Below, piece after piece: positions 430-59,630 of a stretch of 64,000 nucleotides of DNA (positions are counted from its first letter, which is position 1; each line of letters opens with the position of its first letter). The notes beneath the pieces were generated by a model, which saw only the letters and a list, made by a program, of their open reading frames with translations, made no database searches and had not been told where the DNA came from. Source of the stretch: Kluyveromyces lactis (taxonomy: Eukaryota; Ascomycota; Saccharomycetes; Saccharomycetales; Saccharomycetaceae); contig NC_006041.1 in assembly GCF_000002515.2 (NCBI RefSeq), positions 1,054,001-1,118,000 on the forward strand. Direction: 5' to 3'. Position numbers and translations under genes: made by a program.

Positions 430-1230
430 ATGTCCTGGGAAGGGTTTAAAAAAGCTATCAACCGTGCTGGTAACAGCGTGCTCATCAAAAATGTTGACAA
501 GACTCATGATAAAGATTATGGAATGGAAGAGCGTAGGTACAGGGTCCTTGAGAAAGCAGGTAAGGAATTACAGAAGGAGGCAAAGGGATATCTTGATTCT
601 CTAAGAGCAGTTACCGCGTCTCAGGTCACTATTGCAGAAGTTATCTCGGATTTGTACGATGATTCCAAGGCAACCAGCGCGTCAGCACACAATATAGGGA
701 ACTACTATCTACAATGTGTTAGAGATTTTGATACGGAAACGGTGAAACAGTTGGATGGGCCCTTTAGAGAAACTGTGCTTGAACCAATCACGAAATTCGC
801 CACTTATTTCGATGAAATTGAAACAGCTATCAAGAAAAGAGAACATAAAAAACAGGATTACGATGCAGCAAAGGCTAAGGTGCGTAGACTTATCGATAAG
901 CCGGCTAAAGACGCTACCAAGTTACCTCGTGCCGAAAAAGAGTTGGCCTTCGCTAAGGATATTTACGATAATTTGAATGACCAATTGAAATTAGAACTTC
1001 CACAACTAGTCTCCCTCAGAGTGCCCTATTACGATCCAAGTTTCGAAGCATTAGTGAAGATTCAGTTGAGATTCTGTACTGAGGGGTACACTAGACTAGC
1101 GCAAATTCAACAGTATTTGGACCAGCAGTCACGTGATGATTACGCAAACGGTCTTCTCGATCAAAGAATCGACGATTTATTGCAACAAATGTCAAATCTA
1201 AACATTTGCGCTCTAGGTTTCAACAAATAA
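430..1230 (+). CDS. RVS161: Rvs161 amphiphysin-like BAR-domain protein
   Basis: The protein has 266 residues, close to the 265 of S. cerevisiae Rvs161. It begins MSWEGFKKAINRAG, the conserved amphipathic N-terminal helix of N-BAR proteins, and the rest is charged helical sequence typical of a BAR domain (about residues 10-235). There is no SH3 domain, which separates it from its partner Rvs167. In yeast the Rvs161-Rvs167 heterodimer binds curved membrane and drives scission of endocytic vesicles; Rvs161 also acts in cell fusion. The ATG at 430 was chosen because the open frame before it starts only with a TTG. In S. cerevisiae RVS161 and SAT4 are convergent neighbours; here they keep that arrangement with one extra gene between them. 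Confidence 0.96.
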   Translation: MSWEGFKKAINRAGNSVLIKNVDKTHDKDYGMEERRYRVLEKAGKELQKEAKGYLDSLRAVTASQVTIAEVISDLYDDSKATSASAHNIGNYYLQCVRDFDTETVKQLDGPFRETVLEPITKFATYFDEIETAIKKREHKKQDYDAAKAKVRRLIDKPAKDATKLPRAEKELAFAKDIYDNLNDQLKLELPQLVSLRVPYYDPSFEALVKIQLRFCTEGYTRLAQIQQYLDQQSRDDYANGLLDQRIDDLLQQMSNLNICALGFNK

Positions 1231-1837: not shown

Positions 1838-4800
1838 ATGTTCATTAAAGTCCGGTTTCCACCGTTTTTGTCTCAATGTGTATTATCCTACCCCCAAGTT
1901 TTCATTGTGATTCCACTTCTAATCACTTTCCTCATCTCGTATTCGCCATTAGTATCTAAATCTTCTGCATATGAGGCATCGAATACTTATCTTTCAAGAA
2001 CACTGTCCACATACGGAAATGTGACTGGTTCCTCAGATTATAATTACTCTCTCACAAAAGTGATTCTACAGCCAGATGATGGGTCTAACGCATTATCAAA
2101 GTCATTTCTTATAGACTCGCTTGCTGCACAAGCGAAAATCATGCATAACATTTCAGACGACGTCATTTTACATTCACCTTTCGACCTTTGGAATAACGAT
2201 ATTGATCTATTGCGTAACGACAGATCACCAATGGCGACTGTCAACGGCAATTTGCATAAGATTCCTATGTTCTTGTTCCAAGGACTGGTAAAGGTCAATG
2301 GACGTGTTTCCTTTGCAAATCGACTATCGTTTACTATTATGTCACAGTGGGATAAAAATGATGTCATTTCATCGCACCTAAGTCAAAACGTTGAGGAGAT
2401 GAATAAGATTAGAAATCAATCGAATTTTTATATCTTCACCAATGGATCTACGTTGCTACCACAAAGTCAGAGTTCAACTTCACTAGAGAATACTGAAATA
2501 TTCCAATTCCATATCTCTAAACTGAACGGTTTCGATTTTCTATTGATTCTTACTATCTATTCCCTTATCGTATCGTTCTTTATATATAATATGGAACATA
2601 TGAAATCTGTGAAGTCGCCTTTTGGAATCTCGGTCGCTATCATCGCACAATTGATTTTGACTTTATACACTGGAAAAGCTGTAACATGCTTTTTTTTCAA
2701 AACTTCGTCCGATAACATACCATGGTTTTTGATATACATCCCAATCATGTTTGCATCGTTATCGAACCTTTTCAAATTGACCATAGAGAAAAAGGGTACC
2801 ATTTTCATCGAAAGGGAACCCGTGTTCATTCAGACAAGTAACGATCAAACTAATACACCTCCTTTTCTCTCCTCCCAACAAGACTTTCTGAACTCAATGG
2901 TAAAATCAAATCGTGACACATTAAGAACAACGTTGGCTATGCTTATTCTATTGGTCATCATCACTCCGTTCAGTAGAAAAGTTTGTTGTTTTTTCATTAC
3001 TGCATTACTCACTAATTTATTTTTGCAGATCACTTATTTCTGTGCCGTGTTGAGTCTGGACCACAGAAGATTCACTTATAATGAGCTACTAGCATTGAAT
3101 AACGATGATTCCAGTAGCGATCTCAATGTCTCCTTGGATAGAGGGTTGGAAGAAACCAATTCTAGATGGACAGCTTGGATTGAATTGTTTACAGAATTGA
3201 ACGAATGGCTTCCGAAGTCGCCTCTTCTATCAAGATGTTCGACTTTAACTGCCTTTTATATGTTATATTTGAACACAAGATTCTCATCGATTCGTTCTTC
3301 TTCGTCAATTTTTTACAAAATTCTTAGAGGAAAGTTTTTCAATTTCATGACTTTTTCATCGCCGTTCACAAAAGTTGTCTTCGATAAACGATTTGTTTCA
3401 AATGAGTTGTATCGTCTCAGTGGTTCTAAGATATCTAGCAGTAACGTACTACTAAACGATCCTGTTATTGTCATTAAACATAATGCTAAATTCCAATCTT
3501 TGGACGGCAAAACCTACAAACAAATTGCTGACATGTACAATTCCTCTCCAATGAATACGTATAAGTTCGATGTCTATTATTTTATTGAGTTCTCGATATT
3601 TCTACTATTGATATTAGTATCAACCTTGTTGGTTCTTCAATTGATCATACGAAAATTGGATCACCATAATATTAAACTCTATGAAATTAATATGGAAGAA
3701 AATAAAAGGAAACCTTCTGCAAAGGGAACAGCATTTGATACATACACATCTTCTTCTTCCTCGTCAGGACCAGCTTATAAACAGGATTTAAACAAAAATG
3801 TGTTCCATATCAAAGAACTATCGATCAATGGACACGAACTTGATATAGTTGATATGGCTACATCTAAAGCACCGTTTGTCGTTTCCATAGGTCTTGATCA
3901 CAAAGTTCTTGTTTGGTCACCATTGAGTAACCCATTACCAGCTCCTACTGAGATTCCACTTCCAGTTAAATTTTGGCCAGTAGTGTATACTACGATATCG
4001 AATAACGGTACCTATATTGCTTTTTTCAACAATACAGGAAGAATCACATGTTGGTCTCGTAAGACAATGTCATTCATTTGGAATATTAAATTGGAATCCT
4101 TTGATTCTAAACCTCCACTAGAAGCGTTCTTTAGAAAAAAGACGGTACCAGGCTTCATGAAACGTAAAGATGCGCCAAAGACATCATATAACAACATTGG
4201 TATGGAAAGAAGGGGAAGCGCTATCTCCTTGAAGTCTTTGGTGTCGGTATCTTCTGCAACGTTTGGATCGAGCGGTCCAGGCGATGCGAGTTATGAAAAT
4301 TTCAATGCCCTCTCCTCTGATGATGAAAACATGGATGAATTCATTTTCATAAATGCATCCAACCTTATCAATGTTATAGATAATCAAGGCAATTTAAAAT
4401 CGCAGCAAATTACCTCCTCAGAAAACCGTCTCAAATCTTGTAAGAGATTGGTCACACCAAGAATGAATGAAAGATTAGTATTGTGTGACGAAGCCGGAGA
4501 GTTATATGTGTCAACAGTGGTAAACAATAAATGGAGAACAAGGAAACTATTGGTTGTTAGAGATCGATTTAACAAGGGTAAAGGATTGATGACCCCACGC
4601 TCATTGAGGATGAAAATGGGTATCCCTGCCACACCATCCGATGAAACATTGAATGATTCATGTTCCTCTGCGTCGACATTTGAATCTTCTGAAACTGATA
4701 ATACGTTGTTGTTGGTTCCTTTTGTCGGTATGGCTGTTAAGAAAAGCGGGCGTTTTGCCGAATTGATCGACGTTCAAAGTGGTACATCAATTAAAAGAAT

Positions 4801-5566
4801 TAAGGTAGGAGATTTCATACCAGGAACTTTAAGGGTTTTCCATGACCAACCCACCCATTGTAGGTTTTGTGGTAGTGCGTCTGTTGCAACTTTATCTATA
4901 GCATACACCTCTATGAAAAACTCACTTATTATGCATTCTTTCCAATTGGAAAGTAGAACTAAAACTAGTATATGTCTACGTGTTGAGCGTGATCCACGTG
5001 AAATCCGTTGCTTAGGTTTAGAGTCAGTGGTGGAGAAGAAGTATCATTTGTCCAATGTGGATCGTTGGGATGTAACCGAAAATAATACTTTGATCGGTAT
5101 CAGACGTAAACCTGAATTAATTGTTGCTAATCCTGAACAAAAAATATCTTCTTCTTCGATGTTGCGTTCCATCTCTGCTTGCGAGTCCGATGTTGATAAC
5201 AAAATCTATAAAAGAAACAACGCGAATTGCTCAGCTAAGAGATTAAGCAATTTCGAGATCCATAATGTTTGGGAAGGATGGACGATGGATGCCAACGGTA
5301 AAGTTATTTTCCATGAAATTCCAATCGGAATTAATGGACTCCTAGTCAATAGAATAGGACCTTTAAAGAAATTTGGAACTAAATCTATAGTAGTTGGGTT
5401 TGGAAACATTATGAAAATGTTTTACCTAGGTCATGAAGAGTTCATATTGGAAGCTGATGCTGCTGGAGTAAATGAAGAAAATAGCGGATTGCGGTTTGTC
5501 AATAAGAGACGGGAAAGGTTGGTTCACAAGATCAGTCCCAACTATGAAGTAATGTCTGAATCTTAG
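1838..5566 (+). CDS. SCAP-like sterol-sensing membrane protein with WD-type C-terminal region
   Basis: This 1242-residue protein has the layout of SREBP cleavage-activating protein (SCAP; fission yeast Scp1). It has one hydrophobic segment near residues 20-38 and a long loop to about 230 with several N-x-S/T sites. A cluster of membrane segments follows (about 231-251, 261-279, 294-313, 362-378, 384-404), placed like a sterol-sensing domain. After a further loop comes a last segment at about 569-592, then some 640 soluble residues with WD-like strands (for example IGLDHKVLVWSP and NNTGRITCWS). The end of the sensing region reads VLSLDHRRFTYNEL, resembling the LSIDIRRMELADL stretch of animal SCAP as I recall it. 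SCAP escorts SREBP from ER to Golgi when sterol is low. No such gene lies between RVS161 and SAT4 in S. cerevisiae. The family call rests on architecture and this local match. The cargo here is unknown. Confidence 0.78.
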   Translation: MFIKVRFPPFLSQCVLSYPQVFIVIPLLITFLISYSPLVSKSSAYEASNTYLSRTLSTYGNVTGSSDYNYSLTKVILQPDDGSNALSKSFLIDSLAAQAKIMHNISDDVILHSPFDLWNNDIDLLRNDRSPMATVNGNLHKIPMFLFQGLVKVNGRVSFANRLSFTIMSQWDKNDVISSHLSQNVEEMNKIRNQSNFYIFTNGSTLLPQSQSSTSLENTEIFQFHISKLNGFDFLLILTIYSLIVSFFIYNMEHMKSVKSPFGISVAIIAQLILTLYTGKAVTCFFFKTSSDNIPWFLIYIPIMFASLSNLFKLTIEKKGTIFIEREPVFIQTSNDQTNTPPFLSSQQDFLNSMVKSNRDTLRTTLAMLILLVIITPFSRKVCCFFITALLTNLFLQITYFCAVLSLDHRRFTYNELLALNNDDSSSDLNVSLDRGLEETNSRWTAWIELFTELNEWLPKSPLLSRCSTLTAFYMLYLNTRFSSIRSSSSIFYKILRGKFFNFMTFSSPFTKVVFDKRFVSNELYRLSGSKISSSNVLLNDPVIVIKHNAKFQSLDGKTYKQIADMYNSSPMNTYKFDVYYFIEFSIFLLLILVSTLLVLQLIIRKLDHHNIKLYEINMEENKRKPSAKGTAFDTYTSSSSSSGPAYKQDLNKNVFHIKELSINGHELDIVDMATSKAPFVVSIGLDHKVLVWSPLSNPLPAPTEIPLPVKFWPVVYTTISNNGTYIAFFNNTGRITCWSRKTMSFIWNIKLESFDSKPPLEAFFRKKTVPGFMKRKDAPKTSYNNIGMERRGSAISLKSLVSVSSATFGSSGPGDASYENFNALSSDDENMDEFIFINASNLINVIDNQGNLKSQQITSSENRLKSCKRLVTPRMNERLVLCDEAGELYVSTVVNNKWRTRKLLVVRDRFNKGKGLMTPRSLRMKMGIPATPSDETLNDSCSSASTFESSETDNTLLLVPFVGMAVKKSGRFAELIDVQSGTSIKRIKVGDFIPGTLRVFHDQPTHCRFCGSASVATLSIAYTSMKNSLIMHSFQLESRTKTSICLRVERDPREIRCLGLESVVEKKYHLSNVDRWDVTENNTLIGIRRKPELIVANPEQKISSSSMLRSISACESDVDNKIYKRNNANCSAKRLSNFEIHNVWEGWTMDANGKVIFHEIPIGINGLLVNRIGPLKKFGTKSIVVGFGNIMKMFYLGHEEFILEADAAGVNEENSGLRFVNKRRERLVHKISPNYEVMSES

Positions 5567-6047: not shown

Positions 6048-7738
6048 CTATTTGATTGGGTGACCTTCATGACAGCAAACGATTTCTCTTCCCCATTCAC
6101 TATTCAATATTTGATCACCACTTAACCTTCTGCTAGGTACAGGATCCAAAATTGAATATATGACATTTCTGCATCTAGCACGTTTTAACTTTTCAATCGG
6201 ATCGTATCCGGCGGCATTTTTTCTTCCCTTCAAATATTTCAGATAAAATTCATCTTCCTTTTGAGCTGTGGCCCAAAGCTGGCGGCCGGTTCTCATCGCC
6301 ATGTAAATTACACCGCAAGCCCAGATATCCACTGCTCTTGGATCAAATTCTTCTTGAGTATATTCTTCTGGTGCAATATAGGGCCCAGAGCCACAAACTC
6401 CACCACTGAGATGAATCTCTTTTTCCCATGCCATTCTGAAACATTCGCTGTTACCGAAATCAGTGATCTTTAGAGTACCATCATGAGTGAGCAGTAGATT
6501 CTCCGGCTTTAAATCTCTGTGGCAAACGCCCATATTATGCATGTAAACAACACCTGTTATTAGTTGTTTTAAAAAGCAGTCAGCTTCTTGGTATTCTAGT
6601 TTCCCTGCTGCGATAATCAAAGTGAACAAATCACCACCTGAGCAATACTCCATCACCTCACAGTAATCACCCTTTGCGTCTTGGAAAAGATCTAGAGTTT
6701 CTATAATATTGGTATGCTTCAAAGATGAAGAGATGCAGAATTCAGACGTCAACCTCTTCGAATATTTCACCGGATTTTCAGTGGGTCTTCTTCTAAATTC
6801 TTTAACAGCATATAAAATTTCTCCACTAACGCTTTTTAAGTTCTTCTTGTGACAAATCCGTACCACACCGAAGGAACCTTTCCCGATAACTTCCTGGCAT
6901 CTCCCATATTTCTGCCCAAAGGTAACAGACCCATGATGCAATGGGTTGACAGCGTCTTCAAAATTAAGCATTTTTAAGTCTGGTTGGCTTTGCTCTTGTT
7001 TTGTCCCCAGCACTTGTGTAGCCCCACTATAAGGATAAGCAGTCCCATTTTGAAGTTGATAAGTCTCGGCAGAAGCGGCGTCCACTTGCTTTATGAGACC
7101 TGCAAATAATGATGGTGGATCACCGGATTTCATTGACTTTATGAGTATATCCGGTACAGCAGATTTGGCTTCACCACGTAATTTTTGTGCACCAAGCATA
7201 TTTTTAATCATAGATCCCAACTTCTCCTGTCTCTTTGCATTTTTCAAATGGTGTTCATGGGTCCCATCCTCGTGCAGGATGAACCTACGGTTTGGATTAG
7301 GACACGTATTTGCAGAGGATAGAGTCGATAAGTTTGCCGTTGATGATGCAGAATGGAGCTTTTCTGTACTGGAAGCGATGGATTTACCATCTGATGCTAG
7401 ATGTTGCTGTGAATTGAAATGCTTATTGTTGTAACTCGAACTATTGATCGTAGAAGTAGCTCCTGAAGCTAGTCTTGGGGACGAAGGTCTGGTGCCATCA
7501 TAGCGGTACCTTGATGAAAGGGAAGAAGATGACGAAGACGAAGGTGGTGAAGGCGGGGAAGCCGTGGTACCCGTTCCGGAACCTGCAGAAGTCGCCTGTG
7601 GGACCTGACTAGTACTAGTATTGACAGAAACATTGTGTCTCGGAAGATCTTCATCAGGAGAAACTTTGGACACACCAAAGAGTTTACCAATCTTAGAGCT
7701 AAACGTGCCCTTTCTTGATCTTGTTCTCAGCACAGAAG

Positions 7739-7770
<32 letters not shown>

Positions 7771-7892
7771 AAATGGCCTGCCTTTGGCAGGCCATCAACT
7801 GGATCTGATGGATTCCTGGGTATGGAAGCAGTAACTGCGGCGGCAGGTGCTGGCGCAGCTGCCAGCTGTGATGGCAGCGTATCAATGCTCAT
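6048..7892 (-). CDS. SAT4: Sat4/Hal4-type serine/threonine kinase
   Basis: The 614-residue protein (603 in S. cerevisiae) has a low-complexity N-terminal half and a kinase domain at about 329-605. Visible kinase motifs are the glycine loop GKGSFG, the VAIK-type lysine in AVKEF, the catalytic loop HRDLKPEN, DFG and an APE-type element reading IAPEE. Sat4 (Hal4) stabilises plasma-membrane nutrient and potassium transporters and so confers salt tolerance. A glutamine run near residue 42 is encoded by CTG/CAG repeats at about 7741-7770. The ATG at 7890-7892 is preferred because the codon before it is GTG. The neighbour RVS161 matches S. cerevisiae synteny (YCR008W next to YCR009C). Confidence 0.93.
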
Positions 7893-8390
7893 CACCCAAA
7901 AGCAATAAAAAAAAAAGATGCAATAATTTGTATTTGTTTCGGAGCGGCTGGAAAATAGCCAAAAAAGATTGGATAAAAAACCGGCGGTAGCTTTAGAAAC
8001 TGTAAGTTCTATTCAAATGCAATAAATTGATAATGTGTATGTATTTTGTTGTGCTGCTTGTGTTTTTTTTGAGCGAAGAGATGTGTAACGGTGTAAAATT
8101 TATTGCTCAAAATACAAAACTTGTATGAAGTAAAGCAAATTACAACTGAAATTTAACCAAATAAATAAGTAAATGAAATAAACAAAAAAATAAAGAAAAT
8201 ATGCAACTCTCAAGCGAATTAACAAGCGAGCGCTCTTTTCGAAGGGGAAAAACTTTAAACAAAAAAAACTTCTCAGAGACTTCTCAGAGGAAAAAAGAAT
8301 CTTTAAGCGGGAATTCCAGAAAAATTGCAACAGGTGAGAAATAGGAAAGGAAAAAAAAACAACAGATAGCAAAAGGGGAAAAAAATTAAA
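7893..8390. promoter_or_regulatory. SAT4 upstream region
   Basis: The SAT4 promoter probably lies here. The sequence is rich in A runs and contains no recognisable gene. Open frames on the minus strand lack an ATG start and run into the tRNA-Asn gene. Confidence 0.35.
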
Positions 8391-12128: not shown

Positions 12129-13778
12129 ATGATAAGAAGGAGGAGAAGAAGATTTAAGGGTACAAAAGTAATGAGTCTTCCGATCGAAATTATTGATCGT
12201 GTAGTAACTAGCGGACTAGACAGTCTAGAGAGTCTGTTAGCATGGAGTAAGGTTGGTTCACATTTTAGAACAATTATAAAGCGCAAGCTTGGTGTATTGA
12301 AGATTTGGGATTTGGATAGGGAATCATCAAAAACCTTAGCAGATCCTTGCAATTATGAGTTGTTATCTGATGAGAGAAACACCGCTTGCGTAAATACAGA
12401 TACGTTCAAGTTTCCTGTGTTGAGCGAATTTCTACGGAAGTTTGACAACGTTCTCATTGTCATCGTATCCGATCGCTGCTACAGTGACCCATTGGCGACG
12501 GCATTATGTGAATTAAGTAGAGGGCTAAGTGGGATGGGTACTCTAAAGAATCTATGCTTCATGTATAAGACGACTACCAATTTCCTTTCCAAGTTCTATT
12601 TCAGAGAGCTAAGCCATTGTCAAAGCCAACTACGATTATGTGAATTACATATATTCGCCAACCGAGATATTAATCACCAGGAAGTTGACATGTTTGATAT
12701 CGACACGATATTTGAGACTACTTATTTACATGACGTGGAAACGCTGTTCACTTTGAACATAAGAAGGGGTAAGAAAGTGATTGCACCTAGGATTATGACA
12801 GTGAATCAATTGCAATGTGAGGATAACACTACAATAGTCGATGATCTACAATACTGTCCCCTGCTTAAAACGATTGAAAAATTCCAAGTGCCACCAGGAA
12901 AGAGAGTTGTATTACCACCATGCGACCATTTAACTCTCGTCAGTTACAATAGTAACACTGAAAGGGATCTTGTTGATGGATCCTTCGTGAGAGAATCTTT
13001 GACAATCAGGGCATCCCCAATGTGTTCAGAAGCCAATTTCAAGAACATCAAATGCCGCAACATTCGATCCCTATGTGTCGAATTTAGTAACAGTGTCTGG
13101 GGTAACGTCAAGTTCATCGATTGTGCTTTTGGGAACCTAAGGTCTTACAGGTGTCCAGTGAATACAGAATGGGAAGATTTGGTTTATTCAAACTCAATTT
13201 ACGTTGATACAATCATATTCAAAATCTCAAACATGCTGTCACTACAGAACCTCGCACAGATCCCATTCACGTTGGACAACCTCGTCTTGAATTCAGACGA
13301 CAAGGAATTGAAACCACCAGAATGTAAGCCGGATCAAATGAGAAGCATATACGGTTGTAAACAGGTAATCCAAGAATTGAAAAGGTTGGAATTCGAACTT
13401 TCAAGCATCTGGGACTGCGCCGTATTTCAACATGTGATCATTCCAAATCTCACAAATGATTCTGAATTGTGCCTTACGATAAACGAAAGTCACATAGCAA
13501 GAGAGCTAGAGAAGGCTCGTGAATGGGACAGATCTTTGTATCTGCTCGAAAGTTTACAACTAGATTGGAATCGTAATAAGATACGGTTCTGTATCCCTAA
13601 ATTGAAAGCATTCCAATTATCTATTATAAGAGAAAGAATGGACGAAACAAGAGAACGAGTATTTCAATTGCCCGTTGGTACAATGTCGCTACTGCATCCA
13701 TTACTTTCTACAAATGGTGCCAACTACGTTAACCTGTCCGAGCATGATGTTATCGAATTCATAGATACTAATGCATAA
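12129..13778 (+). CDS. F-box-like protein of unknown role
   Basis: The protein has 549 residues from this ATG, or 535 if the ATG at 12171 is used. The second start places the sequence MSLPIEIIDRVV at the very N-terminus, which is usual for F-box proteins; the first adds an arginine-rich leader. The segment LPIEIIDRVV...LLAWSKVGSHFRTIIKRKL fits an F-box (helix, conserved LP, then W and R). The rest has irregular leucine-rich stretches and cysteines but no repeat I can define. F-box proteins link substrates to the Skp1-Cul1 ubiquitin ligase. I do not recognise an S. cerevisiae counterpart, and neither flanking gene (CFT2, BLM10) has such a neighbour there. It may be lineage-specific or fast evolving. 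Confidence 0.7.
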   Translation: MIRRRRRRFKGTKVMSLPIEIIDRVVTSGLDSLESLLAWSKVGSHFRTIIKRKLGVLKIWDLDRESSKTLADPCNYELLSDERNTACVNTDTFKFPVLSEFLRKFDNVLIVIVSDRCYSDPLATALCELSRGLSGMGTLKNLCFMYKTTTNFLSKFYFRELSHCQSQLRLCELHIFANRDINHQEVDMFDIDTIFETTYLHDVETLFTLNIRRGKKVIAPRIMTVNQLQCEDNTTIVDDLQYCPLLKTIEKFQVPPGKRVVLPPCDHLTLVSYNSNTERDLVDGSFVRESLTIRASPMCSEANFKNIKCRNIRSLCVEFSNSVWGNVKFIDCAFGNLRSYRCPVNTEWEDLVYSNSIYVDTIIFKISNMLSLQNLAQIPFTLDNLVLNSDDKELKPPECKPDQMRSIYGCKQVIQELKRLEFELSSIWDCAVFQHVIIPNLTNDSELCLTINESHIARELEKAREWDRSLYLLESLQLDWNRNKIRFCIPKLKAFQLSIIRERMDETRERVFQLPVGTMSLLHPLLSTNGANYVNLSEHDVIEFIDTNA

Positions 13779-28162: not shown

Positions 28163-28732
28163 ATGTCACGGCTCAATGATCCAGTAGAGCTTTTACAGCA
28201 AACCCGGTCCAATTTCATCATTGAAAGCGATGTCTCTAATATTAAAGAGATCAAGAGTAATATGAGACAGCTCACGAAATTGATGGCTGAGAAACAAACA
28301 CACCACAATGAGCTCATGAAACAATTGCAATCACAGCTGCAAAGACAGCAAACTAAAGTGCAGGCACTTAAAAAGAATTTTCAGGAGCAAACAAGCCAAG
28401 TGAAACGCGTAGAGGACGAATTAAACATACCGAAATTGCAACAAGACATAGATAAACTGGTACAGGAAATTAACCAGCTTCGAGATACGATACAAGAGGG
28501 TATTCAAAAGGTCGTAGAAACACAGAAACAATTACTCAATGACGATACTGATGCTGCCCACACGATTGATGAGGAACCGATCGGTAAAGATGACAAGATA
28601 CGTGTGCTAAAGTTGAAGTTGTTCCATTCCCTTGACGTAGCACTATATAATGACCAATTGCTCGATCTAAGGAATGAAGCCCGTCCATTATCATCATCAT
28701 CATCATCTCACAACATCTGGGATGAACTATGA
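28163..28732 (+). CDS. SPC24: Spc24, Ndc80 kinetochore complex subunit
   Basis: The 189-residue protein has the N-terminal pattern NDPVELLQQTRSNF, close to NPVEFLKEVRESF recalled from S. cerevisiae Spc24. A coiled coil spans about residues 30-130, and a small globular end contains VLKLKLFHSLDVAL. Spc24 with Spc25 forms the inner end of the Ndc80 complex. Each main part matches the family, and ASC1 lies downstream as SPC24's neighbour does in S. cerevisiae (YMR117C, YMR116C). The ATG at 28163 was chosen because the frame upstream opens with GTG and adds 19 non-conserved residues. Confidence 0.88.
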   Translation: MSRLNDPVELLQQTRSNFIIESDVSNIKEIKSNMRQLTKLMAEKQTHHNELMKQLQSQLQRQQTKVQALKKNFQEQTSQVKRVEDELNIPKLQQDIDKLVQEINQLRDTIQEGIQKVVETQKQLLNDDTDAAHTIDEEPIGKDDKIRVLKLKLFHSLDVALYNDQLLDLRNEARPLSSSSSSHNIWDEL

Positions 28733-41827: not shown

Positions 41828-42724
41828 ATGTCGTGGTCTCAGGGAAATGTATCAGATGTGTTCAGTTTAGGATACGACTTCAGTAGTAACGTTGCGTACC
41901 CGAATTTGCTTTTAGATACGGAGCTCGAATCAAATTTGGAGTCAGATGTTACGGATGAGTTACAATTACAACCACAGGTGTCGGACTTTTCTATGTCTTT
42001 AGCTGATGCCTACACTTTCAATTATACCGATAATACTACTGCCAGTGCCAGCAGTGGCAGGATTAGCAATGCTAGTTCTACCGCTGGCACTGGTGACGAC
42101 ACTGCCGAGACAGCGACGACGACGGCGACAACGCCGCTACCCCGTCAAAGACGGTACTCGAAGAATAACCGTCAAACACCACCATCTTCATCTTCTGCAT
42201 CTCCTTGCGGGAACCCAAACTCGCAGTCTGGCTCGATCTCTAGCAATTCGTCGAAAAAAGTGTCTGATTCAAGGCTCTCGGCAAGAGGATTGGCTGAAGT
42301 GTTGAATTTGAGTTCCCCCGCAGAAGCGTTATACAGGGAAAAATTTATCTTGGACATCTTCGAAAAGGAATTGCACTATCCATTGGGTTATAAGACTTGG
42401 GTCCGGGGTACTACAAAGGAGTATAGAACCAGGATTTTATACCAACTGCATCAGCGCGTTAAGACCAGGTATCCCGAGTACGATGAAAAAGTGTTAGAGA
42501 TCATCATCAGAAGAGCCACTTACTATATGATGCAATCAAGGTTAAGACGAGAACGTAGAGCCAGAGCCAAGGCAAACAAATCGAAATCTACACAACGGAT
42601 ATCGAAAAACGATTATTCTTCTTCACGGAACGCAGGAAACGAAAATGGAGACATGGACGTTACTAGTTTCGATTTCGGTGTCAATTCAAATTCGTTTGTC
42701 ACAGGAAACGCTTTCTTAATGTAA
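41828..42724 (+). CDS. YBL029W-like protein of unknown function
   Basis: The 298-residue protein has an acidic N-terminal part, a low-complexity middle (S, T, N, with repeated TT and SSS) and a distinct basic C-terminal domain. That domain (about residues 158-250) contains KFILDIFEKELHYPLGYKTW, TTKEYRTRILYQLHQRV and RRATYYMMQSRLRRERRARA, and could bind nucleic acid. An acidic tail-like start plus a basic domain suggests a transcription regulator, but this is inference. The position between YBL029C-A and YBL028C makes it the counterpart of S. cerevisiae YBL029W (376 residues). The ATG at 41828 is used because the upstream frame opens with GTG. Confidence 0.75.
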   Translation: MSWSQGNVSDVFSLGYDFSSNVAYPNLLLDTELESNLESDVTDELQLQPQVSDFSMSLADAYTFNYTDNTTASASSGRISNASSTAGTGDDTAETATTTATTPLPRQRRYSKNNRQTPPSSSSASPCGNPNSQSGSISSNSSKKVSDSRLSARGLAEVLNLSSPAEALYREKFILDIFEKELHYPLGYKTWVRGTTKEYRTRILYQLHQRVKTRYPEYDEKVLEIIIRRATYYMMQSRLRRERRARAKANKSKSTQRISKNDYSSSRNAGNENGDMDVTSFDFGVNSNSFVTGNAFLM

Positions 42725-49582: not shown

Positions 49583-51457
49583 TTACGATCTGGCGGGATT
49601 GATATTACTGATTACAGGAGATGGAGTTGCGTTTAGTTGTGAAGCTGGTGGTAAAATTGGGTGTCTTCTTGGCAGATCCTTGGGTTGATACTGGTGGCTT
49701 TGGTTTGGGGATTGATTGATACTAAAATGAGGTAAGTGATGTGATTGCTGAAGATTCTGTCTCTGGTACCTCTCATCGATCAGCTTCTTCTGTTGATTTT
49801 CTACCTCTTTTGCCACTTGGTATAGAGATTGGATTGAAGGTGATGAGACTGAAAGCGGCGGTTGGGTTTGTATGATTGGAATTTGGGAAGCGGAGGTGAC
49901 CGCAGTGTTCATGGTTGCAGTTCCTGCAGCAGTACCATTGCTGTACACCTGTGGTACACCTGGTCGAGTCTGTGGTTGATGAGAATTTACTCCCGAAGAT
50001 AGTGGCGTTTGAATGGCACCTTGTTGAAGTTGTGATGTGTACTGGTAAGGTTTGTAAGGTTCATAAGGATTTACAGGAACACATTTGAATGACTTCAGAC
50101 TACCATACAATTCCTGTGCAAACTCAATTGGTGTAGCAGGCTCTTTCTTCATTGGGATATGGTATGGTAATATAGGAACGCTAGCACCCTGTGGCACGAA
50201 AACTGTGTGTGGTATTGGCATGGTAGAATATGCTTGTTGCTGATGGTAGTGTTGTTGCTGTTGTTGCTGTTGTTGCTGGAGATTTTGTTGCGGTAGCATG
50301 TACCCATTTTGGCCCATATATCCGAGCTGAGTTGGCATCATATTTTGATGATGTCTGGAATATTCAATGCTGTTTTGTTCCTGTTCCAGAATTTCATTGA
50401 AAGTGTTTTCAAACAATTCCCAGTTCTCTGCAGTTTGCTCAGCACCGTTTTCGATGAGATGTAGTAGTTGTGTCTCAAACTTTGTGGTCTGGATATCATT
50501 GTGAATCTTGTTCGCAATAGATTTCTTCCAAACTTGAATATGAGAAGAGATTTGTTTTTTGGATCTTTCCTCACCGGTTTTATTCTTGATGTATATCGAG
50601 ATTAGTTCGTTTCTACCGTAATTGTTATCCTTTAATTTTATCTTGGCAGTACCATTCTTCATAACTAATTGCAGTGCGTTGATAAACGCTGTCTCCACAT
50701 TAGGAGCCCATTTGTCATTGTTGTTTAAGTTCTCCGGAACACTTATGGTGCTAGAATTGAAAGACATCGCAGACATTGGGGTTGGTAAATCTTGCGATGA
50801 TTGAGAATGGCGAGTATGTAACAAGTGTTGTTGTTGTGGTTGTTGTGGTTGTGCTGGCCCACTCGATGGAGCTGAGGGCATAGTAGAACCATTTGCGTTG
50901 ATGCTAATATCGGATAAATGATGTGGATTGGAAACTAATGGACTAATCTGTTTCTCTGAGATTCGCTGTTCTAATGCAAGAGATAAACTCTGCGCTCTGT
51001 TGGCTGTCAAAGACTGTGGTGTCTTTTTATGAACCATACTGTTGGTCGCAGGGAGAGACACTTTCCTTCCTTGACCAGTATTGATTAGAAGGTGGGATCT
51101 ATCGGAATAGGACTCCGTTTCCGTTGGTGGAGGTTTGTAATCCAATATATCAGGCAAATGTTTCTGCTTCTGAGACCCATCGTTAATGTAAACGTCAAAT
51201 ACTCTTGTATTTAAAGATTTCCAGGATGGTGGATCTACGTTTGTGGAACCTGTTGCAGGCGCCGAGTCTTCGCCAGAATGTTGGGTAGCGCCTCCGACTG
51301 ATGAATGGGACGAGGGCGATGCCGATACGACAGGTGACGAACGGTCAGGCTGTTTCTGATTTGAATTATCACTACTGATGTTGTTTTCCTGAGAACCTTC
51401 CACATGAGAGTCGATACTGTTCAAGAGACCCGCCCTTTTAATTGCAGTATCCGACAT
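49583..51457 (-). CDS. TEC1: Tec1, TEA/ATTS-domain transcription factor
   Basis: The 624-residue protein (486 in S. cerevisiae) has a TEA domain at about 247-317. It reads DKWAPNVETAFINALQLVMK and later GRNELISIYIKNKTGEERSKKQISSHIQVWKK; the QISSHIQV helix is the DNA-contact signature. The remainder is rich in Q, S and P, with a glutamine run at about 390-408. With Ste12, Tec1 drives filamentous growth genes through CATTCY sites. The ATG at 51455-51457 (MSDTAIKRAG) is preferred; the frame upstream opens with GTG. MIS1 lies next to it, as in S. cerevisiae. Confidence 0.93.
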   Translation of the reverse strand: MSDTAIKRAGLLNSIDSHVEGSQENNISSDNSNQKQPDRSSPVVSASPSSHSSVGGATQHSGEDSAPATGSTNVDPPSWKSLNTRVFDVYINDGSQKQKHLPDILDYKPPPTETESYSDRSHLLINTGQGRKVSLPATNSMVHKKTPQSLTANRAQSLSLALEQRISEKQISPLVSNPHHLSDISINANGSTMPSAPSSGPAQPQQPQQQHLLHTRHSQSSQDLPTPMSAMSFNSSTISVPENLNNNDKWAPNVETAFINALQLVMKNGTAKIKLKDNNYGRNELISIYIKNKTGEERSKKQISSHIQVWKKSIANKIHNDIQTTKFETQLLHLIENGAEQTAENWELFENTFNEILEQEQNSIEYSRHHQNMMPTQLGYMGQNGYMLPQQNLQQQQQQQQQHYHQQQAYSTMPIPHTVFVPQGASVPILPYHIPMKKEPATPIEFAQELYGSLKSFKCVPVNPYEPYKPYQYTSQLQQGAIQTPLSSGVNSHQPQTRPGVPQVYSNGTAAGTATMNTAVTSASQIPIIQTQPPLSVSSPSIQSLYQVAKEVENQQKKLIDERYQRQNLQQSHHLPHFSINQSPNQSHQYQPKDLPRRHPILPPASQLNATPSPVISNINPARS

Positions 51458-58439: not shown

Positions 58440-59630
58440 TTATTCATCCAGGTTTTGGTGGGGTGGTTGTTGATAGTAACTTTGATATTTCATGAATTGA
58501 TAATTCTGTTGTGAAGGATGGTTATGCATTGGTGCGGGAGGAATTGCGTACATTGAATGCTGTTGAGATGGACCTTGCCCATGACTCTGAATTAATCCCT
58601 GGCCTTGTGATGGGTGTGCTCCTTGAACCTGCCCCGGTTGGCGGTAGAAAGGACCCGACGAAATTGAAGGCTTAGTGGATGAAGGAGGAGTCACCGAATG
58701 ACTTTGTGAGCCTTGTAAATTCCCCTGGTACTGGGGTTGGATATTACTTTGTTGTGGTTGCTGCTGCTGTTGCTGCCGTTGCTGTTGCTGCCGTTGCTGT
58801 TGCTGTTTCTGTTGCGACTGTTGTTGCGGCTGCTGATGCTGTTTAGGGACCATTATGGAATTGTGGTTCATGTTTGGAGATCCAGGACTGTTGTGATGGC
58901 CCGGCATGAACTGAGCCAACTGCATCCGCAACTGTTCATTTTCCTGTTGCAGCAGACTGTTCTTGCGTTCCAAATGTTTGATGTACTCATGAGATTTTGA
59001 CAAAATTTGAACCTTGTTGACTTTCGAAGGTGGAGCCAACCCTTCTAGCGATTCCACAGGAATAGAGTTATCGTCACACCATCGAAGTGTCGGTACCGAG
59101 TTTCTCAAAAACTGGAAATGAGTGTTAATGTTGTTCCGATACTTTTTCTCACTATCGTTATGACCCGAGGAGGTGTTCCCCGAATGGTTCACAGCAGCAC
59201 CACCACCACCAGAAACCGTGGGAGCCAATGGAGTCATTAACGCACCGTGGTTCGTAAATCCTGGGATCGCAGGGAGCACGGGAAGCCCAGTCACTGCAGC
59301 GTTAAACACAGCGTTCGGGTTGTTTCCAACGCCAGTATTGGCGTTGGGCCCTGAGGCTTTTGTCACCTTATATGTATTCTGCGGCAGATTGGAAAAGGGA
59401 ACACCAGCAGCGGTGTTGTTGTTCTGGTTGCTGTAGGTATTTGGATGCTGCTGCTGCTGCTGCTGCTGCTGCTGAACAGAAGCCAATTGATCGCTGTTCA
59501 TCAATGCATTAGAAGAGGACACCAAAGGACTCAATTGGCTTCCTGGTCCTGGAACAGATCCTGATACATGTCCGGGTACTTGATCGTCCGTCCTTTTATC
59601 GTTTGCGTATGCATAATCAGACAAAGGCAT
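58440..59630 (-). CDS. SREBP-type bHLH transcription factor without membrane segments
   Basis: The 396-residue protein has a bHLH at about 156-224, reading HNDSEKKYRNNIN then VPTLR, and after a loop SKVNKVQILSKSHEYIKHLE. A short leucine zipper follows. The tyrosine in EKKYR is the hallmark of the SREBP group (Hms1, Tye7, Cph2), which binds both E-box and SRE sequences. The rest is low complexity, with glutamine runs near 55 and 265-295. Nothing hydrophobic follows the bHLH, so unlike true SREBPs it is not membrane-anchored. Whether it is the Hms1 or Tye7 counterpart I cannot decide. The ATG at 59628-59630 is preferred; the frame upstream opens with TTG. Confidence 0.82.
   Translation of the reverse strand: MPLSDYAYANDKRTDDQVPGHVSGSVPGPGSQLSPLVSSSNALMNSDQLASVQQQQQQQQQHPNTYSNQNNNTAAGVPFSNLPQNTYKVTKASGPNANTGVGNNPNAVFNAAVTGLPVLPAIPGFTNHGALMTPLAPTVSGGGGAAVNHSGNTSSGHNDSEKKYRNNINTHFQFLRNSVPTLRWCDDNSIPVESLEGLAPPSKVNKVQILSKSHEYIKHLERKNSLLQQENEQLRMQLAQFMPGHHNSPGSPNMNHNSIMVPKQHQQPQQQSQQKQQQQRQQQQRQQQQQQPQQSNIQPQYQGNLQGSQSHSVTPPSSTKPSISSGPFYRQPGQVQGAHPSQGQGLIQSHGQGPSQQHSMYAIPPAPMHNHPSQQNYQFMKYQSYYQQPPHQNLDE

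Follow-up and report, generated by a model that had tools for sequence, protein, structure and literature searches.

What does a SCAP-type escort protein carry or sense in a yeast that also has Upc2? The swap from SREBP to Upc2 in sterol control has its textbook example in budding yeasts, and the question was raised by a gene at positions 1838..5566 (+ strand) of a 64 000-nucleotide stretch of Kluyveromyces lactis DNA (contig NC_006041.1, positions 1 054 001 to 1 118 000; hereafter the window). Its open reading frame (ORF) begins with ATG at 1838, ends with TAG at 5566 and encodes 1242 amino acids (aa) with 0 internal stops. The probability of a frame this long staying open by chance was p ~1e-38 (independent bases, GC content of this DNA). 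The gene is almost certainly a true SCAP (Scp1-type) orthologue. As a whole, the locus is probably best explained by an Scp1-type escort that is gated by sterol, has Hms1 as its likeliest client and acts beside Upc2.

The SCAP identity had been proposed in a preliminary description made from the letters of the window. It was supported by a profile search, by the WD40 fold of the C-terminal half and by a predicted five-segment sterol-sensing domain (SSD). In the profile search of the SSD region, SCAP ranked first and outranked the transporter families; NPC1, HMG-CoA reductase (HMGR) and Patched-type families gave weaker matches. On the single protein, the Pfam Sterol-sensing profile matched weakly (E 0.0019, 18.5 bits, under the cut-off of 22.3). 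At the same gene it reached 24.4 bits, just above the cut-off, in a six-frame search of the K. lactis genome (7 contigs, 10.73 Mb), and it was detected in 36/37 family members (E <= 0.01). The weaker matches of the SSD region, together with a Pfam 'Patched' match in 14/37 family members, could point to another SSD protein (NPC1/NCR1, HMGR or a Patched-type transporter). However, SCAP sequences scored far higher and an Scp1-like WD40 domain follows the SSD, by which such an identity was refuted. Moreover, elsewhere in this genome two genes on different contigs from SCAP (ORFs of 1197 and 1077 aa) match the SSD profile more strongly than SCAP; we read them as NCR1 and HMG1. The probability left to another SSD protein is negligible.

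A WD40-type propeller, the predicted SREBP-binding domain, occupies aa 653-1202 (3794..5443, +; structure model). Comparison of the structure prediction with SCAP, which the description had proposed as a check, gave an Scp1-type WD40 fold for the C-terminal half (the list of structural matches covers the WD40 half only). When the whole model was searched with Foldseek, hamster Scap was retrieved (9pxb_A at rank 11, 7etw_B at rank 20) with a poor whole-chain root-mean-square deviation. A phmmer search of the C-terminal half alone against the PDB returned no SCAP match and two unrelated rows up to E 10. The SCAP match of this half was obtained only by the family profile and the structure model.

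Membrane segments were located with the structure model and with our own Kyte-Doolittle hydropathy scan, which is not a transmembrane (TM) predictor. Hydropathy peaks were found at aa 21-39, 231-249, 258-276, 294-312, 369-387, 389-407 and 586-604. They reproduce the membrane layout described before, which the model extends by a short helix, the candidate TM7, and by domains of luminal and WD40-like type. TM1 (aa 19-39, 1892..1954, +) corresponds to model helix 7-27 and to the first peak. It is followed by predicted luminal loop 1, a mixed alpha/beta domain (aa 40-230, 1955..2527, +; structure model). The SSD (TM2-TM6, aa 231-412, 2528..3073, +; Pfam match aa 258-415) was delimited by profiles, alignment and model. 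Its five-segment arrangement was predicted by hydropathy and by the model, in which five helices span aa 231-253, 261-286, 296-321, 342-375 and 380-422; TM2-TM6 mostly have confidence scores (pLDDT) >85, with a low-confidence loop between. Candidate TM7 (aa 466-481, 3233..3280, +) is a model helix (454-469 in the model) under the hydropathy cut-off. TM8 (aa 586-604, 3593..3649, +) was found by hydropathy and by the model, inside a long helix (aa 579-623). The SCAP order of TM1, large luminal loop, SSD, TM7, luminal loop and TM8 is thus predicted, with TM7 placed by the model helix only.

Homologues were collected at E 0.001 (80 proteins, several labelled SCAP by their sources). Only 7987-7989 candidates sharing most words were scored, so a species missing from the lists is weak evidence. 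The closest named relative was a Kluyveromyces dobzhanskii protein (76% identity), and identity falls to 40% in E. cymbalariae. Further named SCAP rows belong to Eremothecium, Lachancea, Zygosaccharomyces, Zygotorulaspora, Torulaspora and Saccharomycodes, and more distant ones to Saccharomycopsis, Wickerhamomyces and Cyberlindnera. Such fast divergence would suit a decaying relic kept by chance, but this was rejected: the frame of 1242 codons is intact, full-length relatives are named as Kluyveromyces, Lachancea, Eremothecium, Zygosaccharomyces and Torulaspora, and 45 columns are invariant across 37 sequences (K. lactis SCAP and 36 of the other 79 homologues). A relic or pseudogene is very improbable. 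The presence of the gene is already known: according to the legend of Fig. S5 in Maguire et al. (2014; PMC3894159), SCAP was kept in K. lactis and in all Saccharomycetaceae outside the whole-genome duplication (WGD) clade and lost in the WGD clade. K. lactis SCAP is one of those Scap genes.

Retention, which the description had presented as a puzzle, was therefore on record; for its question of what the protein carries, a strong candidate was found in Hms1. The Hms1/SREBP gene of K. lactis (L011:1365-4190; G000:C5:1489864-1492689) encodes 941 aa and lies on the same contig, about 430 kb from the SCAP gene. Its product has a basic helix-loop-helix (bHLH) domain with Tyr in the basic region (SHNVIEKKYR; HLH 57 bits), one conserved hydrophobic segment and an Sre1-like C-terminal domain. 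DUF2014 was recognised there at 29.4 bits against a cut-off of 27, covering only profile positions 318-445 of 454. The likeness to Sre1 is a structural match only (Sre1 chain of 5grs); a profile of Hms1 homologues gave no match to that chain by sequence. One HLH gene bearing DUF2014, that of Hms1, was found in the genome. Of the eight HLH matches, those inspected were the Hms1 gene and a 281-aa ORF in L002 and, with Pfam, one gene in the window. Judged by its anatomy in the sequence, the genome thus appears to hold an SREBP client with a membrane segment and a SCAP-binding-type C-terminal domain, and Hms1 is probably the protein that SCAP would bind.

The Hms1 alignment comprised 23/24 rows; P0098 (1228 aa), in which our own bHLH pattern had no match, was left out, and the later rows P0105-P0114 were not included. 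One SRE-like ATCANNCCAY site was found upstream of HMS1 (L011:1063-1072) and was uninformative, as at least one occurred in 90/200 shuffles. The same pattern in the window (7 sites, 5.25 expected) led nowhere. In the open-licence PMC, no report was found of the anatomy of K. lactis Hms1 or of a missing COPII-type motif. PMC6329520 describes three SREBP branches and the ATCANNCCA motif, and marks fungal SREBP TM domains in a figure. That figure may already show a TM in K. lactis Hms1; the words 'lactis' and 'SCAP' are missing from the text of the article as far as available.

Other parts of the pathway were searched for in the same genome. An INSIG gene (PF07281, 63.4 bits, cut-off 28), a Dsc3_C match (106.7 bits) and one 773-aa frame with two DUF2921 matches (65.5 and 63.4 bits; gene at G000:C6:2385496-2386299) were found, DUF2921 being what we take as a marker of Dsc1/Tul1. 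Two rhomboid genes were also recovered, by a profile that matched 14/14 controls as well. Dsc, INSIG and rhomboid genes occur also in yeasts without SCAP, so they permit the pathway without proving it. Upc2 was located on contig C1 (541 bits to 7vpu) at a place that fits KLLA0A04169g. This gene is listed as the Upc2/Ecm22 counterpart in PMC2763219, whose text, in the part available, mentions neither SCAP nor Hms1. According to a partial text of PMC2926788, the Ecm22/Upc2 motif is enriched in ergosterol-gene clusters of Saccharomyces cerevisiae, Candida glabrata and K. lactis. Because Upc2 is present in the same genome, SCAP-Hms1 would add another branch for sterol or hypoxia beside it, probably one of narrower reach.

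Computation shows directly that the protein belongs to the SCAP family and has a WD40 fold, how the client is built, and that the parts occur together. We infer the escort and cleavage of Hms1, its targets, the binding of sterol and a physical contact between SCAP and Hms1, and a working, sterol-regulated SCAP-Hms1 escort is likely. A drop in ergosterol (low oxygen, azole or terbinafine) would let the SCAP-Hms1 pair exit the endoplasmic reticulum (ER). Cleavage of Hms1 close to its one hydrophobic segment would follow by a Dsc-ligase route, as in Schizosaccharomyces pombe and Komagataella phaffii, and the released bHLH half would enter the nucleus.

One of the nearest known systems is that of K. 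phaffii, with which K. lactis shares an escort with SSD and WD40, a single-TM Hms1 with bHLH-Tyr, and Upc2 alongside (PMC12926077, as far as available, here and below). There, the single-TM proteins Hms1-1 and Hms1-2 are cleaved with the participation of Scp and Dsc1, Hms1-1 being less Scp-dependent. That system was functionally tested, whereas the K. lactis pair is known from sequence and models; it has two Hms1 proteins, whereas K. lactis has one DUF2014-bearing HLH gene. Yarrowia lipolytica is named as the only previously known dual system. Compared with S. pombe Scp1-Sre1, DUF2014 of K. lactis Hms1 is only partly recognised and Upc2 is also present; S. pombe Sre1 has two hydrophobic segments (PMC12926077), against one in Hms1. 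With vertebrate SCAP-Insig, K. lactis shares the SSD match with its LSxD element and the presence of an INSIG gene. In S. pombe, INSIG apparently has no role in ER retention, according to the part of PMC3894159 available.

Residues of functional interest were compared in an alignment of 79 rows, in which the K. lactis row (aa 13-1212) replaces P0001 and P0073 was left out. D443, Y298 and L315 have known roles in SCAP. The VLSLDHRRF stretch, which the description had taken as a SCAP pointer, was verified letter by letter at aa 404-412 (3047..3073, +), and its D408 aligns with D443; this position is D in 75/79 sequences. The Y298 position is F247 in K. lactis SCAP (Y in 44/79), and the L315 position is I264 (L or I in 66/79). 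The vertebrate COPII hexapeptide is MELADL, after TM6. At its place, K. lactis SCAP has FTYNEL (aa 412-417, 3071..3088, +; alignment), and the motif is not conserved. A self-written MELADL-type pattern matched 0/36 of the closest rows, K. lactis SCAP included; its 26/79 matches all fall among the 43 sequences outside these 36. K. phaffii Scp, by contrast, has a reported putative COPII motif (PMC12926077, in part). Since the MELADL-type hexapeptide is absent, the vertebrate export mechanism is not claimed for K. lactis SCAP. The absent motif weighs against a sterol-gated escort, for which the export signal and the topology of Hms1 with one segment are the main doubts.

Conservation bears on the same point. 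Mean values by region were 0.67 for aa 961-1075, 0.56 for aa 651-760, 0.47 for aa 1076-1212, 0.38 for aa 761-960 and 0.36 for the SSD. The most conserved block (aa 1001-1060, 4838..5017, +) lies inside aa 961-1075 and has many invariant H, C and R columns (H1002, H1007, C1008, C1011, C1046, C1058, R1048, R1051, R1054 and R1057), which could be a metal site or a client-binding patch. SCAP may have lost sterol sensing and sterol-regulated export, its WD40 domain still binding Hms1 or another partner as an ER anchor or assembly platform. C-terminal parts far better conserved than the SSD (0.67 and 0.56 against 0.36, but only 0.38 in aa 761-960), the loss of the COPII-type motif from the 36 closest rows and F in place of Y298 speak for this, as does the persistence of CTG-clade Scap proteins despite loss of the SSD (PMC3894159, in part). 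Nevertheless, the D443 equivalent is retained in most sequences, the SSD is still recognised in all but one of the 37 members, and TM2-TM6 are modelled mostly with high confidence. We regard a SCAP without sterol sensing as unlikely, and the sterol-gated escort of Hms1 beside Upc2 is kept as the preferred reading.

SCAP and an Hms1 with a membrane segment were found together in K. lactis, Lachancea nothofagi, L. lanzarotensis, Zygosaccharomyces rouxii and Eremothecium cymbalariae. Ten further Hms1 rows were divided equally: five have a hydrophobic segment and five have none. The latter, among them those of Saccharomyces arboricola and Hanseniaspora osmophila, measure 407-632 aa and have no precomputed DUF2014. 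Neither Saccharomyces nor Hanseniaspora is among the named SCAP rows, which is weak evidence since many of the 80 homologues are nameless. P0105 (340 aa, from a contig of 1725 bases) may be incomplete. Support in the bHLH tree was weak. Its poorly supported group with the Zygosaccharomyces rows also contains two long branches, one bearing the short Hms1 rows P0111, P0113 and P0114 and the other S. arboricola P0110. H. osmophila Hms1 (P0108, 632 aa) has no hydrophobic segment. The Hanseniaspora lineage branched before the WGD, and H. osmophila may have lost the SCAP-Hms1 link independently.

We lean slightly towards a scenario in which the non-WGD Saccharomycetaceae kept the full SREBP-SCAP module (SCAP, Hms1 anchored in the membrane and bearing an Sre1-type domain for SCAP binding, INSIG and Dsc ligase) beside Upc2, with a non-MELADL export signal, and in which it was dismantled around the WGD, SCAP being lost and Hms1 shortened to a soluble bHLH protein. 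In PMC3894159, as far as available, Y. lipolytica alone has an intact DUF2014, and there is very little evidence of membrane-localised SREBPs in Saccharomycotina; K. lactis Hms1, in contrast, has a conserved hydrophobic segment and an Sre1-like C-terminal domain. A SCAP-Hms1 circuit still running in K. lactis would revise that view beyond the Komagataella exception. The swap from SREBP to Upc2 would then become experimentally addressable in K. lactis, a genetically tractable relative of S. cerevisiae. It could be asked what the old circuit senses and controls with Upc2 in the leading role, and why its loss accompanied genome duplication.

The SCAP gene is flanked by a BAR-domain gene (430..1230, +; PF03114, E 3.1e-52) and a protein kinase gene (6048..7892, -; PF00069, E 2e-49). 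These domains are consistent with the labels RVS161 and SAT4 given in the preliminary description, from which both gene names are taken. To our knowledge, S. cerevisiae has no gene between RVS161 and SAT4. Elsewhere in the window, three ORFs had no Pfam match at the cut-offs used (12129-13778, +, 549 aa; 28163-28732, +, 189 aa; 41828-42724, +, 298 aa). A TEA/ATTS-domain transcription factor gene lies at 49583-51457 (-). A second bHLH gene was found at 58440-59630 (-; 46.2 bits) and may encode a CBF1-like factor.
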